Assembly (NCBI RefSeq): GCF_027359415.1
Contig: NZ_CP114780.1
Coordinates: 434,001 to 498,000 of the forward strand
From: Prochlorococcus marinus str. MIT 0918
GTDB taxonomy: Bacteria; Cyanobacteriota; Cyanobacteriia; PCC-6307; Cyanobiaceae
Length of the DNA: 64,000 nucleotides
Direction of reading: 5' to 3'
Below, piece by piece: positions 1,650-59,402 of this stretch. The translations under genes were made by a program, and so were the position numbers. Below the pieces are notes generated by a model, which saw nothing but the letters and a program-made list of their open reading frames with translations, was not told the DNA's origin and did not search any database. Position 1 is the stretch's first letter; every line of letters starts with the position of its first letter.

Positions 1650-1874
1650 CTAATTATTATCTGAGGAACTATAAATATAAGGTGCTAAAAATAGGAAAAG
1701 AAACCACCATATAGATATTAAAAAAACAAATAGAAGTCTTATAATCCAACTATTAGTGATTAAATATATAATAATAAGAACTAAAGTACCTGTTAATAAA
1801 ATCGACCAAGGCTGACACCATTTTGGTTTATAAGACCAAAAAGATGAAATTACTGGCTTAGTTTCTGACTCCAT
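1650..1874 (-). CDS. Small two-helix membrane protein (DUF6737-like)
   Basis: The 74-residue product begins with a short polar region and the motif KPKWCQPWSILLTG, then has two hydrophobic helices (about residues 24-42 and 46-68) and a polar tail. The tryptophan/cysteine-rich W-C-Q-P-W-S entry into the first helix is what I associate with a conserved cyanobacterial family of unknown function (DUF6737); that assignment is from memory. Its start codon overlaps the stop of the upstream PPC-glutaredoxin gene by one base, so the two are probably translationally coupled. The 4-base gap to the GNAT gene suggests a three-gene transcript. Confidence 0.7.
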   Translation of the reverse strand: MESETKPVISSFWSYKPKWCQPWSILLTGTLVLIIIYLITNSWIIRLLFVFLISIWWFLFLFLAPYIYSSSDNN

Positions 1875-2476
1875 TAAGAGAATTTTCCTGATGAATATAA
1901 TTCTTTAAACTCTTCATAGCCACCTATAAAATTATTATCTATAAATACTTGGGGAAATGTAGAGGAATCGCTTCTCTTACTTATTTCAATAAATTTATCA
2001 TCATCATTAACTTCAATTATATTATAAGTCAAATTGGTCGATTTGAGCATTCTAAGAAGGCGTGAAGACCACGGGCATTTAGGTAATGTAGCTATCTCTA
2101 AAACAAAAGAATTTTTATTAAATTGAGGTGGTTTCCTTTGAAAATTATAATCATTAGGGATACCAATAAGAAGATCTAATCCCTTATAGATTATAGCTCC
2201 TTCCTCTAGATGACCACCCCAAACTTTGCAATCTCCATCTGAAAAACTAATGTGCAAATGTACTTTATCTGGAGATATTGTTCCTATTAAGGTAATTACT
2301 TCTAAAATTTCTTCAAATATAGTAGGCGATTTCTTGCCAGGACATTGAATAGCAGCTTTTGATAAATCACCTATGACACCTATTATATGGCCTGAACAAT
2401 CGTTGTTTTTTGCAAAAGACAAAACTGATGTCTTCAGATCATCTCCAGGGGATAATCTTAACGAATGAGTTTCCAT
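1874..2476 (-). CDS. PPC (DUF296) domain fused to a glutaredoxin-like domain
   Basis: This 200-residue protein has two recognisable parts. Residues 1-107 match the PPC/DUF296 fold: SLRLSPGDDL at the start, then HLHISFSDGDCKVWGGHL, where the histidines and the G-G-H-L segment are family hallmarks. Residues 122-196 match glutaredoxin: a KCPWSSRLL active site with a single cysteine (CPWS, monothiol type), the TFPQVFIDNNFIGGYEE segment with the cis-proline, and the GG glutathione-binding element. Monothiol glutaredoxins usually handle iron-sulfur clusters or glutathionylated thiols. PPC proteins occur alone in bacteria and as DNA-binding AT-hook proteins in plants. The joint role is unknown. Confidence 0.85.
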   Translation of the reverse strand: METHSLRLSPGDDLKTSVLSFAKNNDCSGHIIGVIGDLSKAAIQCPGKKSPTIFEEILEVITLIGTISPDKVHLHISFSDGDCKVWGGHLEEGAIIYKGLDLLIGIPNDYNFQRKPPQFNKNSFVLEIATLPKCPWSSRLLRMLKSTNLTYNIIEVNDDDKFIEISKRSDSSTFPQVFIDNNFIGGYEEFKELYSSGKFS

Positions 2477-2530
2477 TATTTTTAGTATAGAAAAAACAAA
2501 TTAACTATTAATTCAGATTAACAAACTGCT

Positions 2531-18230: not shown

Positions 18231-18354
18231 ATAACGCCCAAAATAAATAAAAACTACTATTAAAAGTAAGATTTTATACATGCAAATGAGTATTAAATAA
18301 AATCCTTCATAGCATTATCTGAAAAAATCTAACCTTAAAGATTTTCAATTACTA

Positions 18355-19422
18355 ATGCCTCTTAATTATTACAAAGAAGAATTAAAAAAAACTGCTGAAT
18401 CTCTAGCCAAGTCTGGGAAAGGCATACTAGCTGTAGATGAATCTACAAAAACTATTGGCAAAAGACTTGCATCAATCAATTTAGAAAACACTGAAACAAA
18501 TAGAAAGGCTTATAGAGGGATGCTTTTTACAACTCAAGGTCTTGGACAATATATAAGTGGTGCAATCTTATTTGAAGAGACTCTTTTTCAAACCCATTCT
18601 GACGGAGAGTTGATGGTAAAAAAGCTGGAAAAGCTTGGAATTATTCCTGGTATTAAAGTTGATAAGGGATTAAAACCATTAGCAGGCGGAGGCGATATAG
18701 AAACTTTCTGCTCAGGTTTAGATGGTCTAGTAGAAAGATCTTCTGACTATTACGCTCAGGGGGCTCGCTTTGCTAAATGGAGAGCAGTACTTCAGATTAC
18801 AAATAATGGTTGTCCTTCAAAATTATCAATCAAAGAAAATGCTTGGGGCTTAGCTCGCTATGCAAGATCTGTTCAAGAATCAGGTTTAGTCCCCATTATT
18901 GAACCAGAAATACTCATGGATGGTTCCCATGGAATTAATAAGACAGCAGCTATTCAAGAAGAAGTAATCAAAGAAGTATATATGGCCTGCAAGACAAATG
19001 GGGTTTATTTGGAAGGGACTTTGCTTAAACCTTCTATGACTATTGAAGGGGCGGAATGCCCAGAGAAATCCAATCCAAAGACAATAGCTGAGCAAACCAT
19101 TAGGACAATGGAAAGATCCGTTCCAGCTGCAGTACCTGGAATAGTTTTTTTATCAGGTGGATTAAGTGAAGAGGCAGCATCTGTATATTTAAACTTGATG
19201 AATAAAATAAAAAGAAAAGCTACTTGGAATATTGGTTTCTCTTATGGCAGAGCACTACAACACTCTTGTCTTAAAGCTTGGGATGGCAAAAACATAACCG
19301 CTGGTCAGAATGCTCTCTTAGCACGAGCTCAAGCAAATTCAGAAGCTTCAAAAGGGTGTTATTTAGAGGGTTCTCAACCGTCCTCCGATGAAGCTTTATT
19401 TGTTGCTGGATATAAGTATTGA
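18355..19422 (+). CDS. fda: Fructose-bisphosphate aldolase, class I (Schiff-base type)
   Basis: This enzyme interconverts fructose 1,6-bisphosphate with dihydroxyacetone phosphate and glyceraldehyde 3-phosphate through a lysine Schiff base. The 355-residue protein has the eukaryote-like N-terminus GKGILAVDESTKTIGKRL, then VLQITNNGCPSKL, LVPIIEPEILMDG and YLEGTLLKPSM, where E-G-T-L-L-K-P-S-M is the class I active-site signature with the lysine. FLSGGLSEEAA near the C-terminus is the phosphate-binding loop. It is followed directly by the unrelated class II aldolase gene. Gene symbol follows cyanobacterial usage as I recall it. Confidence 0.95.
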   Translation: MPLNYYKEELKKTAESLAKSGKGILAVDESTKTIGKRLASINLENTETNRKAYRGMLFTTQGLGQYISGAILFEETLFQTHSDGELMVKKLEKLGIIPGIKVDKGLKPLAGGGDIETFCSGLDGLVERSSDYYAQGARFAKWRAVLQITNNGCPSKLSIKENAWGLARYARSVQESGLVPIIEPEILMDGSHGINKTAAIQEEVIKEVYMACKTNGVYLEGTLLKPSMTIEGAECPEKSNPKTIAEQTIRTMERSVPAAVPGIVFLSGGLSEEAASVYLNLMNKIKRKATWNIGFSYGRALQHSCLKAWDGKNITAGQNALLARAQANSEASKGCYLEGSQPSSDEALFVAGYKY

Positions 19423-39635: not shown

Positions 39636-40394
39636 CTATTTTGATTTAGAGTTTTTTTCTATTCGCATCCTCTTGTTAGCTGGTTCAAACTGCTCTAAAG
39701 CTTCAACTGTTCCTTCAAACCTCCAATGCCAAGGCTCATAACTGACTCCCTGAGAATTCCCCTTTGGGAAAGATAAAACAAAATGAAATCGGGCAGCATT
39801 CCTTTGAAGCCATACAAAAGCAGGAGTATTTTCAAATTCAACTTCAAAATCTGTATATCTCATCGTTCCATCTCCAAGATCAATTGCATAACCAGTACTA
39901 TGCTCTGAGTAACCTGGCGGTGCAGAAACTTCTGCTCTTTCAATAGCAATTTGATTTCGTACTGATTTATTTTCATAAAAAATATCTCTTTGCAAATCTA
40001 TAGATCTGTAACCACTTAATAAAACCAACTGAATTCCTTCTGCTGCTGCTGCAGAACTCATTTTGGATAAGGCTTTGTAAGTATCTCTATGAACAAGTAA
40101 TCCTGGATAGGCAGTTACTAAATCTGTTAGGGAAGCTTCTGGATAGGGGAAATGTCCTAACAAAAGACCATCAAATGAAGAACTACCTATTAATTCATTT
40201 TCTTGAAAAGGTTGTGATGATTTCTGAAATGATAAATATTTATAAGTAAGAAAAACAGAAAAGACGGTTAAGAAAATAAAACCAAACAAAAAAGACCTCA
40301 ACCATTTAGAAGAGACCCGTCTTAAAGACTGAGACCTTCTGGCAAGAGGGATCTCATCGTTAGTACTACCTCCAGGTCCTCCTAGTTTGGTCAC
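39636..40394 (-). CDS. Membrane-anchored VanY-type D-alanyl-D-alanine carboxypeptidase
   Basis: A 252-residue M15B-type peptidase acting on peptidoglycan stem peptides in the periplasm. The N-terminus is cytosolic and basic, followed by a single anchor (about residues 36-54, FGFIFLTVFSVFLTY). The catalytic domain has LLSGYRSIDLQ, the zinc ligands in PGYSEHSTGYAIDLGDG (S-x-H-x6-D), and YEPWHWRFEG with the final W-H-W. The start is GTG at 40394. A second M15 peptidase of the VanX type lies at 45867. Confidence 0.9.
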   Translation of the reverse strand: MTKLGGPGGSTNDEIPLARRSQSLRRVSSKWLRSFLFGFIFLTVFSVFLTYKYLSFQKSSQPFQENELIGSSSFDGLLLGHFPYPEASLTDLVTAYPGLLVHRDTYKALSKMSSAAAAEGIQLVLLSGYRSIDLQRDIFYENKSVRNQIAIERAEVSAPPGYSEHSTGYAIDLGDGTMRYTDFEVEFENTPAFVWLQRNAARFHFVLSFPKGNSQGVSYEPWHWRFEGTVEALEQFEPANKRMRIEKNSKSK

Positions 40395-40505
40395 AAAAAG
40401 AAAGCCAAAACTTATTTCGATCGTAACGGTCTTAGCTAACTACTTCATACAGTAATTCTTCTTGATGTAGGTTTTTAAATAAGACAATAAAAAATTAAAC
40501 TGAAA

Positions 40506-55184: not shown

Positions 55185-56074
55185 TATGGTTTAAATCGAG
55201 CGATTACTTTCATTCCTGTAAAGCTTTTTACCTTTACTGATGATTCACTTTCAAGCTTAATTCTGACTTCAACTACTCTTGCATCTGCATCCCCTGTAGG
55301 ATCAGTAGAAATAACTTTTCTCTGGCTTATTTGGGGGCTAATTTGCTTTACAAAACCTTTAAGAGTGCCACTAAAGCCACCATTTTCACTAGTTAAAGAA
55401 ACAATTTGACCAATTCTTATTCTATTTATATCTGATTCATAAACCTCAATAATTGCTTCCATAATTTGACTAGAGCCTACTTGCAAAACACCTTCTGAAT
55501 TAGGTCTTTCCCCTTCTCTAGAATTAATTTTTAAAACTATTCCATCTATAGGGCTTTTTAAATCACTATCAAGTAAATCAACTTTAAGCGCATTAATTTC
55601 AGCAATAATTTCTTTTTTCTTGCCTAACAATTCCAATAGAAAATCTTTTTTCTCATCTAAGAGAACTTCAGGGGATCCACCTTTAGAAACTAAATTCCTA
55701 TACCTTGAGACCTCTCTCTCTTGTGAAACTATTTTTTGAGTAAGTATATTTAAGCGTGCCTGTCTAATTTCTAGATCTGCAAGAATACTAGATTTGTTAT
55801 CAAATACAGCAAGAATTTGACCTTTAATGACCTCATCTCCTTCATTTACTAATAATTTCTTAATTCTAGGAGTTCCTCCTAATCCACTGATTGGAGCTGC
55901 AAGCATTCTTATGTCTCCTGATGGTGATAATTGCCCTAATGCTGCAACAGCTTCAAGAGTTCTAACTATAGGTGGATCAGGTAAATTATTTAATTCTGGT
56001 TCTCTTTGTCTTGTTATAACAAAGAAAAAACTTATTAACGAAAGTCCAATTCCAGAATAAAAAAAGTATTTCAA
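55184..56074 (-). CDS. devB: HlyD-type membrane fusion protein, DevB family
   Basis: A 296-residue periplasmic adaptor with an N-terminal anchor (residues 2-20), a lipoyl-like half (VNEGDEVIKGQILAVFDN), a short helical hairpin (about residues 100-155), and the second lipoyl half SDLKSPIDGIVLKINSREGE. It probably links DevC to an outer-membrane TolC-type channel encoded elsewhere. It overlaps pcyA by 4 bases (ATGA), so translation of the exporter is coupled to the bilin reductase gene upstream. Confidence 0.9.
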   Translation of the reverse strand: MKYFFYSGIGLSLISFFFVITRQREPELNNLPDPPIVRTLEAVAALGQLSPSGDIRMLAAPISGLGGTPRIKKLLVNEGDEVIKGQILAVFDNKSSILADLEIRQARLNILTQKIVSQEREVSRYRNLVSKGGSPEVLLDEKKDFLLELLGKKKEIIAEINALKVDLLDSDLKSPIDGIVLKINSREGERPNSEGVLQVGSSQIMEAIIEVYESDINRIRIGQIVSLTSENGGFSGTLKGFVKQISPQISQRKVISTDPTGDADARVVEVRIKLESESSVKVKSFTGMKVIARFKP

Positions 56075-56793
56075 TTTTCTTCTTTTGAAAAACCAGTTGG
56101 AATATCGAAAAGGACCATTTCGATATATTGATTAGCCCAATTAGGACTAAAAGTTTTGGCTAAAACGTTTCGAGTTTTATCGTTACGTTTTTGTTGTTTA
56201 CAATAATACATCTGTGCTTCATATCTTTCAATCGTAGATTTTGAATTAATAGCTTGAGGATTAATCAAAGCAGAATAACTAGTAACTATTGTTAGAAATT
56301 GATCTACAACATCTAAAAAAAGATCAGTTTCTTGAGAGTTTATTGGACGTATAAATAAAACATGCGAAGAAAAAATATCACCCCAATCTGGCAACTTCCT
56401 AACTATTTTAAAATCAGGAAATTCTATTTGATTTAATTGGTATTCAATTATGTCTGGAAGATTACTTCTTACTGGAGACAAATCTACAATCGCAGCAGAG
56501 ACTCCTTCTGGAACAACTACAATATCAACTCCAAAAATGGGTAGATCAAAGGTAGGCTCAGGAAAAAATACAGAATGAAGAATTTCTAAAGAAGAACCTA
56601 TTACTGCTGTTTCCAAATGTAATTTACGAAACCCCCTTGCTCTATTTAATTCATTAACAATAAACAAATCATCTCCACCCAATTTGCCATAAATATTTCT
56701 CAACTCAGGTTTAAGCTCCAATGGCTCAAAACCTTTTAAGCCCTTAGCTCTTTCCCTAATTCGATCTGCTATTGACTCGATAAAGGAATTCAG
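56071..56793 (-). CDS. pcyA: Phycocyanobilin:ferredoxin oxidoreductase, uncertain non-canonical start
   Basis: PcyA reduces biliverdin to phycocyanobilin with ferredoxin. Catalytic positions known from the Synechocystis enzyme are kept: KLHLETA (His74, Glu76), EILHSVFFPEP (His88), FGVDIVVVP (Asp105) and KRNDKTRNVL (the Asn-Asp-Lys trio). Homology extends upstream of the first usable TTG (56721), through FIESIADRIRERAKGL, back to a CTG at 56793, with an in-frame stop 12 bases beyond. No ATG, GTG or TTG is available there. I give the frame from that CTG (240 residues). The start may instead be ATT or ATC nearby. Confidence 0.88.
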   Translation of the reverse strand: MNSFIESIADRIRERAKGLKGFEPLELKPELRNIYGKLGGDDLFIVNELNRARGFRKLHLETAVIGSSLEILHSVFFPEPTFDLPIFGVDIVVVPEGVSAAIVDLSPVRSNLPDIIEYQLNQIEFPDFKIVRKLPDWGDIFSSHVLFIRPINSQETDLFLDVVDQFLTIVTSYSALINPQAINSKSTIERYEAQMYYCKQQKRNDKTRNVLAKTFSPNWANQYIEMVLFDIPTGFSKEEN

Positions 56794-56931
56794 AGGAAAT
56801 AATTATATAAACAATTACACAACACTATGCGAAAAAGGATCACAATGGAACTTTAATTACAGACTCTGGAAAATTCACTCCAAGCCCCAAATACTCATCA
56901 TTTAGTCCTTCGAAACAAGACGAGCTTAGTA

Positions 56932-58131
56932 ATGGCTCAAATGCCTGATTCACCTCTAACTTGTCTAGATTTATGGTGCAAAGCTGGTAGTTTCTATGAA
57001 AAAGAAGGTGAAGAGGGGTTAGCGCATTTTTTAGAGCATATGGTTTTTAAAGGCAGTAGCAAACTAAAAGAAGGCGAATTTGATAAACAGATAGAAGCAT
57101 TAGGGGGAAGCAGTAATGCTGCAACTGGTTTTGATGATGTCCATTATTACGTTCTGGTTCCACCTGAAAATGTAATCACAGCAATCGATCTTTTAACAAA
57201 CCTTGTCTTAAATCCTGCTCTTGACAAAACTGCATATTCTTTAGAAAGACAAGTTGTACTGGAAGAAATTGCACAACATAAAGACCAACCAGAAGAACAA
57301 GTTTTTCAATGTCTTCTAAAAAATTGCTGGGGGAGCCATGCTTATGGACGATCAATATTAGGACTTGAAAAAACTCTTTTGGCAAGCAGTCCCAATGAAA
57401 TGAGTGAATTCCATAAAAGACAATATCAAACTTCAAATATGGCTATATCTATTGCAGGGGTTATTCCTGAAAATATTCTTGAAATCTTAGAAAAAAGTGA
57501 CCTCACAAGAATCAATTATCACTCTATTCTTAATCCATTAGAAAATAAGATATCCAATCTTATATTCAAAACTGGTAGAAAAGAAATCGAAATCCCAAGA
57601 TTAGAATCAGTACGTTTAACAATTGCTTGGCCTTTATCACCTGCAAAAGATCAAATGATGATTATGGGGGCAGATATCGTTACATCTTTATTAGCAGAAG
57701 GTCGTAATAGTATTTTCATAAAACGGTTACGAGAAGAATTACAAATAGTTGAGTCGATATATATGGATATAACAGCTCTAGAGCAAGGTGGTCTTTATAT
57801 TTTAGAAGTTTGTTGTTTAGAAGAAAATATTAATGCCGTTGAGAGTGAAATCCAGTTAATACTTCGAAACTATCTATGCAATGAAGTTACAAGTAAAGAA
57901 CTAATGCGTGCTAAGAAATTAGTAACAAATAGTTTGTGTTTTAGTTTAGAGTTGCCATCACAGATAGCAGCTATAGCAGGCTCTCAAGTCCTTTGGAACA
58001 GACATCAGCAATTATTGGAACCATTAAAATATATTGACAGTTGGAATGCTAATAACATAAAAGATTTAATATTTAAGCAGCTTCAATTAGAAAATAGTTT
58101 TACATTAATATCAAGGCCAGTTAATAAATGA
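56932..58131 (+). CDS. M16 zinc metallopeptidase (active-site subunit), N-terminus uncertain
   Basis: A 399-residue insulinase/processing-peptidase-like protein. The zinc motif H-x2-E-H is intact in LAHFLEHMVFKG and the downstream glutamate is in VVLEEIAQHKDQ. The ATG at 56932 begins inside the first beta strand; upstream codons back to a TAA at 56854-56856 encode THHLVLRNKTSLVMAQMPDS, matching the family N-terminus. An in-frame ATG with a good ribosome site at 56845 is cut off by that TAA after three codons. Its stop overlaps the next gene by 4 bases. Confidence 0.88.
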   Translation: MAQMPDSPLTCLDLWCKAGSFYEKEGEEGLAHFLEHMVFKGSSKLKEGEFDKQIEALGGSSNAATGFDDVHYYVLVPPENVITAIDLLTNLVLNPALDKTAYSLERQVVLEEIAQHKDQPEEQVFQCLLKNCWGSHAYGRSILGLEKTLLASSPNEMSEFHKRQYQTSNMAISIAGVIPENILEILEKSDLTRINYHSILNPLENKISNLIFKTGRKEIEIPRLESVRLTIAWPLSPAKDQMMIMGADIVTSLLAEGRNSIFIKRLREELQIVESIYMDITALEQGGLYILEVCCLEENINAVESEIQLILRNYLCNEVTSKELMRAKKLVTNSLCFSLELPSQIAAIAGSQVLWNRHQQLLEPLKYIDSWNANNIKDLIFKQLQLENSFTLISRPVNK

Positions 58132-59402
58132 AATCATTAAAAGTAATTTTAAACCCTTGCAAATCTCCAGGGATATTATCCATAAAACTTTGGATTAGAG
58201 AAGGAAGTAGAGCAGATCCTTTTAAGAAAAAAGGGATACATTATCTACTTAGTACATTATTAACCAGGGGGTGTGGTCCATACAATTCAACCACTATAGC
58301 TGATGTTGTAGAAGGGAACGGTGCTGTTCTTTTATCAGAAACTTACGAAGATGGAATAATGATAAGCATGAAATGTATGACAAAAAGCAGCTCTTACCTA
58401 TTGCCAATACTTAAATGGATGATTATAGAGCCTTTGATAGAAGTTAATCATATGAATTTAGAAAGGAAATTATTAATCCAAACAATCAATAGGAATAAAG
58501 AGAATTCTTTTCATATAGCGTTTAATCAATGGAAAAAAATATCTTATGGCAACCATCCTTATAGTCATGATATTTTAGGTGTATCTGAAGATCTTAAGGG
58601 TATAACAAGAGAAGATCTACTTGAACTATCAAAGATGCTACGGTCTAGAAAAAAAGTATTAGTAGCTTCAGGTTCACTTCCTAACAATATTTTAGATGAG
58701 TTTTCTAATATTTCTAAGGATAGTTTATCAACTAATAAAAACTATTCAAATAATTACATCAAACCACTAATAAAAAAATCTTCGAATAACGATTCTATTA
58801 TATATAACTTTGAGAATACAGGTCAGATAATAATACTTTTAGGAACAACAACCATACCCCATTCTCATGAAAATGATTTAATACTAAGACTCCTTAATTG
58901 TCATTTAGGAATAGGAATGTCAAGTGTACTTTTTAAGATGCTTAGAGAAAAGAATGGATTGGCTTATGATGTTGGTATTTATCATCCTATAAGAGAGTAT
59001 GAGGCGCCATTTTTAATTCATGCATCAACAACAAAAGAAAAAGGATTAACAACACTTAAAATCCTAATTGAATGTTGGTTGAATACATTAAAAAACAAGA
59101 TTTCCCATGATGAATTAGAATTAGCAAAAGCTAAGTACCGAGGGAATATGGCACATAATTCACAAACTATAAGCCAGAAAGCAGATAGAAAAGCGCATTT
59201 ACTAGGCATAAATATGTATGAAGATCATGATATTAATTCACTCTTAAAGATTAATCAAATTACTAGAGAAGATATTATTGAAATTGCAAATCTTTATCTA
59301 AAGAGCCCTAAGATTAGCCTATCTGGGCCTCAATCATCAATAGAAAAGTTAAAGGAATATTGGATAAATTATTTTATAAATAATAAAACAAGTATTTATT
59401 AA
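58128..59402 (+). CDS. M16 peptidase-like protein lacking the zinc site (partner subunit)
   Basis: A 424-residue M16-family protein. At the place of H-x2-E-H it has GIHYLLSTLLTRG, so the zinc-binding glutamate and second histidine are gone. It keeps the substrate-binding end REKNGLAYDVGIYH (R/Y pair region) and the family fold (YNSTTIADVVEGNGAVL). Together with the active upstream gene, overlapping it by 4 bases, it forms the classic catalytic plus non-catalytic pair, like mitochondrial processing peptidase alpha/beta. The cellular substrate is unknown. Confidence 0.88.
   Translation: MKSLKVILNPCKSPGILSIKLWIREGSRADPFKKKGIHYLLSTLLTRGCGPYNSTTIADVVEGNGAVLLSETYEDGIMISMKCMTKSSSYLLPILKWMIIEPLIEVNHMNLERKLLIQTINRNKENSFHIAFNQWKKISYGNHPYSHDILGVSEDLKGITREDLLELSKMLRSRKKVLVASGSLPNNILDEFSNISKDSLSTNKNYSNNYIKPLIKKSSNNDSIIYNFENTGQIIILLGTTTIPHSHENDLILRLLNCHLGIGMSSVLFKMLREKNGLAYDVGIYHPIREYEAPFLIHASTTKEKGLTTLKILIECWLNTLKNKISHDELELAKAKYRGNMAHNSQTISQKADRKAHLLGINMYEDHDINSLLKINQITREDIIEIANLYLKSPKISLSGPQSSIEKLKEYWINYFINNKTSIY

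Follow-up and report, generated by a model that had tools for sequence, protein, structure and literature searches.

Where does translation begin in two adjacent, divergently transcribed genes that have no ATG, GTG, or TTG where their conserved N-termini begin? Both lie in the window (the whole stretch of 64,000 nucleotides analyzed here), which belongs to a genome represented by a single contig of 1,789,313 bases. One is pcyA, coding for phycocyanobilin:ferredoxin oxidoreductase (56071 to 56793, reverse strand, from the CTG and including the stop codon; PRK02816, PF05996), and the other codes for an M16 peptidase of the catalytic type with the motif HxxEH (56866 to 58131, forward strand, delimited in the same way; PF00675, PF05193). 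A second M16-family gene, with an ATG start, lies directly downstream of the latter (58128 to 59402, forward strand). The initial annotation had offered two options, a start at a non-AUG codon and a fault in the local sequence. Comparison with related genomes supports the former well, and conserved initiation at CUG in both genes is quite probably the best explanation.

The product of pcyA reached 317.1 bits against the NCBIfam equivalog model PRK02816 (cut-off, 206) and 216.5 bits against PF05996. The PRK02816 alignment begins at the residue encoded by the CTG at 56791 to 56793 (reverse strand), the inferred start codon, and the best match among solved PcyA structures (chain 2d1e, of Synechocystis) also aligns from this leucine, residue 4 of the stop-to-stop open reading frame (ORF), confirming the earlier claim that homology reaches CTG 56793. 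The CTG is preceded by TTA TTT CCT and, before these, by an in-frame TAA (56805 to 56803, reverse strand), and the first canonical codon downstream is a TTG at 56721; the upstream stop and the CTG are indeed separated by no ATG, GTG, or TTG.

The M16 product scored 110.4 bits with PF00675 (cut-off, 22.3) and 61.5 bits with PF05193, and its HxxEH motif reads HFLEH. Its frame runs from a TAA (56854 to 56856) to the putative start codon CTG (56866 to 56868, forward strand) and on to the first canonical codon, the ATG at 56932, so the observation that this CTG alone lies in the homologous stretch between TAA and ATG was also correct. The initial annotation did not mention an in-frame ATG just before the TAA, which forms a three-codon ORF closed by that stop (ATG GAA CTT TAA, 56845 to 56856, forward strand).

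A search with pcyA returned as named relatives two Prochlorococcus single-cell genomes with 55 to 56% identity. Fourteen genomes of the genus were searched for this gene, and eight of them carried both genes together. In these eight, no ATG, GTG, or TTG ever precedes the conserved N-terminus of the M16 product, while pcyA always has CTG at the same residue and an in-frame canonical start upstream (an ATG) in G001 only. The same layout thus recurs outside this genome, in seven more members of the genus as well as in further genera, and since these other assemblies share it (M16 in 8/8 and pcyA in 7/8 within the genus), a sequencing or assembly error, the second option of the initial annotation, is excluded, with a probability that we put at virtually nil.

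For the wider family, M16 sequences were aligned from 71 genomes, namely, the best-ranked 70 of the 184 with an M16 match (a few extra ones included) plus G013. Leaving out G022, G103, G183, G066, G097, G190, and G036, all of which have a canonical codon before HxxEH, gave the set of 64 used for counting. An M16 gene was considered to lack a canonical start when no ATG, GTG, or TTG occurred up to the codon aligned with residue 13 of the query, a rule of our own under which G153 (GTG) and G100 (TTG) count as canonical, and G005, G008, and G013, with a TTG three codons past the limit, as noncanonical. By this rule a canonical start is absent from 24 of the 64 genomes, and CTG is found in the stretch in all 24, versus 31 of the 40 others (Fisher p 0.02, kinship ignored). 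The counts for pcyA cover 61 genomes, three of the 64 (G025, G046, and G111) having no pcyA in the stretch. Eleven of them have no canonical start, and all 11 have CTG at the same residue, versus 6 of the 50 others (Fisher p 3e-8, kinship likewise ignored). Four of these six belong to the same four-genus clade, within which the CTG is present in 15 of 15 genomes. The CTG is, therefore, invariant in both genes wherever a canonical start is missing. That ribosomes begin at this codon, and how a CUG would be picked, we infer from such patterns.

An alternative is that both genes are translated from canonical codons farther downstream, as shorter proteins starting at ATG 56932 and TTG 56721, and such codons do exist in this genome. 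Of the 11 genomes with no canonical pcyA codon upstream, five have as their first one a TTG located 18 codons past the CTG, and in G005, G008, and G013 the M16 CTG is followed 12 codons later by a TTG, so that in these three the argument rests on the CTG and the coding signal. However, the first canonical codon moves from genome to genome (4 to 42 codons past the CTG among the 11 pcyA genes, and 3 to 49 codons past the limit of our rule among the M16 genes without a canonical start), while the CTG stays in place. In three genomes (G001, G002, and G012) the M16 gene offers no canonical codon until right after the catalytic HxxEH, and a protein starting there would be deprived of its active site. 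The stretch that would be lost is, moreover, under purifying selection in frame. Just after the CTG, pN/pS was 0.47 in the M16 gene (21 codons; bootstrap, 0.30 to 0.67) and 0.35 in pcyA (17 codons; bootstrap, 0.22 to 0.59), against 0.33 and 0.32, respectively, in the remainder of each gene and 0.90 to 1.16 when the same stretches were read in shifted frames. To judge by these values, the sequence following the CTG evolves as in-frame coding sequence in both genes, and we consider downstream starts very unlikely.

The codon itself, beyond the leucine that it encodes, is under selection in both genes. The genus alignment of M16 contains 24 columns in which all residues are leucine; the start column is CTG in eight of eight genomes, while in each of the other 23 CTG is used by at most one of the eight. 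The same holds for pcyA, with 12 such columns, CTG in 8/8 at the start and in at most 1/8 at the other 11. In the two genes CTG makes up only 3.7 to 10.3% of the leucine codons of the genus. Across the 51 genomes that have the intergenic block described below, the M16 CTG forms an island of conservation (0.88, versus 0.58 for the flanking codons before it and 0.56 for those after it). ATT, ATC, and ATA were also considered as start codons, and none of them was invariant in the N-terminal stretches of the genus genomes.

Some features count against a CUG start. G001 retains its in-frame pcyA ATG, and many M16 orthologs have an open frame from the upstream ATG. Most orthologs with that open frame nevertheless have CTG as codon 8. 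This codon is TTG in G110 (frame open) and in G028 and G104 (frame closed), and ATG in G084, replacements that in single genomes are as expected for a start position. The place of the CTG is taken by CAA in G131, CAG in G020, and ATA in G031, and all three have a canonical codon open upstream. On the tree of the 64 genomes, built by a quick method and with 21 of its 61 inner branches weak (drawn open), the state without a canonical M16 start changes 13 times, at least eight of these changes being forced by well-supported branches; the upstream frame has been closed repeatedly. We propose that the M16 protein is translated from the CUG at 56866, which lies 21 nucleotides after the conserved ATG and would probably be used across much of the picocyanobacterial family; with such use, the upstream ATG frame could close many times without loss of the gene.

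The closed frame upstream of the M16 gene is itself conserved. In the genus, three codons separate the stop from the CTG, mostly in the arrangement ATG GAA CTT TGA NNN NNN ACT CTG, with TAA instead of TGA here, and ATG-NNN-CTT-TGA-NNN-NNN-NNN-CTG is found in other genera as well. A stop between the ATG and the M16 sequence could be read through, either with TGA decoded as cysteine or tryptophan or by selenocysteine insertion. Among relatives, TGA does alternate with TGC, TGT, and TGG at the stop codon position, and a tRNA-Sec model scored just above its cut-off in two of six genomes, G191 and G086, both with TGA there. Yet the stop in this genome is a TAA, tandem stops occur in G119 (TGA TAG) and G028 (TGA TAA), the ATG is replaced by ATA in G119, G138, and G153, and codons 5 to 7, which would be translated, are unconserved (0.58). 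The tRNA-Sec model was negative in this genome and exceeded its cut-off in 5 of 14 control genomes; selB was above its cut-off in none of the six genomes, as opposed to 2 of the 14 controls. With a TAA here and selB in 0/6, a selenoprotein or programmed UGA readthrough was rejected, and we regard readthrough of any kind as extremely unlikely.

A more substantial competitor, although in our opinion still improbable, is a leader mini-ORF with reinitiation, in which a tripeptide would be made from the upstream ATG, terminated at the TGA or TAA, and translation restarted at the CUG 9 nucleotides on, so that the CUG would serve as the M16 start through coupling only. The pattern ATG-NNN-NNN-stop is kept at the same place in all eight genus genomes and in other genera, a Shine-Dalgarno-like AAGGA precedes the ATG in six of the eight, and the spacing from stop to CTG is fixed at 9 nucleotides. 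On the other hand, ATA replaces the ATG in G119 and G138 while the stop and the CTG are retained, in G058 the stop comes already at codon 2, and G016 and G025 have no clear block. Besides, the conserved DNA may be a promoter, and we saw no equally kept mini-ORF before pcyA. The DNA in question is a conserved block of 22 nucleotides between the two genes (56835 to 56856; family consensus, AAGGATCAGAATGGGACTTTGA), delimited by a profile built on the 51 of the 64 genomes with a block score of at least 13 (13 were below) and of unproven role. It is more conserved than the coding sequence following the CTG, and arms of similar length flank a central AGAATG. The block may be either a mini-ORF that, on termination, supplies the CUG with ribosomes or promoter DNA common to both genes, for which it could form a shared core acting in both directions. 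The idea of a genome-wide motif was rejected: the block had no second close copy, and three further matches with two to three mismatches were found, versus three control matches. Bidirectional promoters of divergent bacterial genes, as treated in part of PMC12825309, likewise have a short conserved block between divergent starts, although for the present block such a role is a guess.

Direct initiation at the CUG of pcyA, at 56793, would have a different history. A canonical codon is found upstream in 50 of the 61 genomes, and in 19 of those the first one lies exactly 11 codons before the CTG position. All eight genomes of the genus have a GTG-TTG (ATG-TTG in G005) 32 nucleotides upstream of the CTG (31 in G003), out of frame. 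The shift to CUG probably took place in one four-genus clade, once an earlier canonical start, some 11 codons upstream, had been closed or had fallen out of frame. A -1 frameshift from this older start was considered and dropped, since the slip site varies (G013) while the CTG is invariant.

As for how a CUG could be chosen, short or nearly absent leaders and a pair of pyrimidines before the codon are the likely context. Two pyrimidines directly precede the CTG in all 11 pcyA genes without a canonical start and in all eight M16 genes of the genus; outside the genus the M16 pair is not universal, the CTG being preceded by ACA in G016 and CAT in G129. A passage of PMC5622118 suggests that a dipyrimidine at -1/-2 matters for initiation in cyanobacteria. 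A TATAAT hexamer, a possible -10 element, lies 8 nucleotides before the pcyA CTG (56802 to 56807, reverse strand) and reads CATAAT in six of the other seven genus genomes. It would place the start of the mRNA at the codon itself, which is no more than suggestive of a leaderless transcript. In Prochlorococcus MED4, 6 to 8% of primary transcription starts fall within 10 nucleotides of the translation start, according to a passage of PMC5607370. A scan with the sigma-70 consensus detected no promoter-like site at this locus, the TATAAT hexamer included. RNA structure over the two starts was likewise considered and rejected (z values of 1.0 and -1.6), and a lax RNA-family search of positions 55900 to 57400 produced a single chance-level match below the cut-off (CRISPR-DR25, E 3.4), far from the starts. 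Both proteins would carry an ordinary formylmethionine N-terminus, delivered by the normal initiator tRNA. An unusual initiator tRNA was rejected as an explanation because the anticodon stem is the ordinary one, which also counts against a CUG start. A bolder extension, tentative and on balance doubtful, is that both mRNAs start a few bases from the CUG, are driven by one shared promoter core, and are translated efficiently without a Shine-Dalgarno sequence by a ribosome that accepts CUG far better than that of Escherichia coli, the weak codon having been kept as an ancient device for setting how much of the bilin reductase and of the processing-type peptidase is made.

A conserved noncanonical start has a bacterial precedent in infC, which starts at AUU and is autoregulated by IF3; the codon is different, and no link of the IF3 type is known for our gene pair. 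CUG itself accounts for 0.024% of initiation codons in bacteria (PMC11497404, PMC9845219), and a reconstruction of start codons, part of PMC5622118, covered about 69,000 ancestral starts and reported four switches to CUG. It is described in PMC11497404, in the part that concerns us, as a nearly useless bacterial start, and work cited there gives its yield as 0.86% of that of AUG, a value that speaks against a CUG start. Like the rare bacterial genes that do begin with CUG, those studied here have no AUG, GUG, or UUG and have a CUG where the N-terminus of the homologous protein lies; unlike them, they retain this codon in several genera, and they are two neighbors that diverge from each other. 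A passage of PMC9845219 deals with non-AUG starts in chloroplasts, e.g., the GUG of psbC, reports lower transcript levels with CUG, and calls CUG a negligible bacterial start. The psbC case resembles ours in its related translation machinery and evolutionarily kept weak start codon, but that codon is GUG and not CUG. Among titles and abstracts of the openly licensed literature we found no paper on CUG starts of these two genes, which speaks only weakly for novelty. The arrangement most likely reflects conserved initiation at CUG in both neighbors, a very rare but known phenomenon in a new form. If true, with the start retained in over two dozen genomes and in a pair of neighboring genes, CUG would be a standing solution for some bacterial ribosomes, and the N-termini of both proteins, when called from canonical codons, would be wrong, to the point that M16 would lose its active site in three genomes. 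The pair would also provide a direct test bed for initiation in cyanobacteria.

We looked for further cases in two ways. In the window, a loose rule applied to the 64 ORFs that could be matched to parts of G001 or G002 flagged 12, and of the 10 besides the pair, the nine that were read looked like conserved leaders, chance extensions, or another frame. In the tenth (18313 to 19422) the G001 match begins at a canonical codon in both genomes. The second screen set 264 kb of G000 against 280 kb of G001 and selected, from 172 orthologous ORFs, those with at least eight aligned codons before both first canonical starts. Seven of the 172 passed, and M16 alone had a shared CTG; pcyA is outside this list because G001 has an ATG. 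The ORFs at 435874, 444241, and 473636 showed no upstream coding continuity when compared with G001 and G002, 473636 having a strongly conserved leader. At 487110, 537190, and 610336, the stretch ends in an ATG common to G000 and G001, with 5/11, 7/9, and 5/17 identical residues before it, respectively. CUG starts thus look rare in this genome, and it is improbable that two neighboring ones have nothing to do with each other.

The gene at 537190 to 538278 (contig 1 of G000, L176-L177, outside the window) is, we assume, that of a Pcb-like chlorophyll-binding protein, and the similarity before its shared first ATG probably reflects a conserved leader. Within the 64-kb window, no known RNA element matched Rfam at the gathering score. 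This includes a segment at 40410 to 40480 (reverse strand), before and at the 5' end of the ORF of a VanY-type carboxypeptidase (39636 to 40439). G001 and G002 show strong conservation of this segment, with AAGACCGTTACGATCGAA as part of the conserved sequence. The frame through it is closed in G002, and the segment is possibly a regulatory element or a small RNA. The window also codes, at 1874 to 2500 (reverse strand), for a protein in which a PCC domain (PF03479) is combined with a glutaredoxin domain (PF00462).
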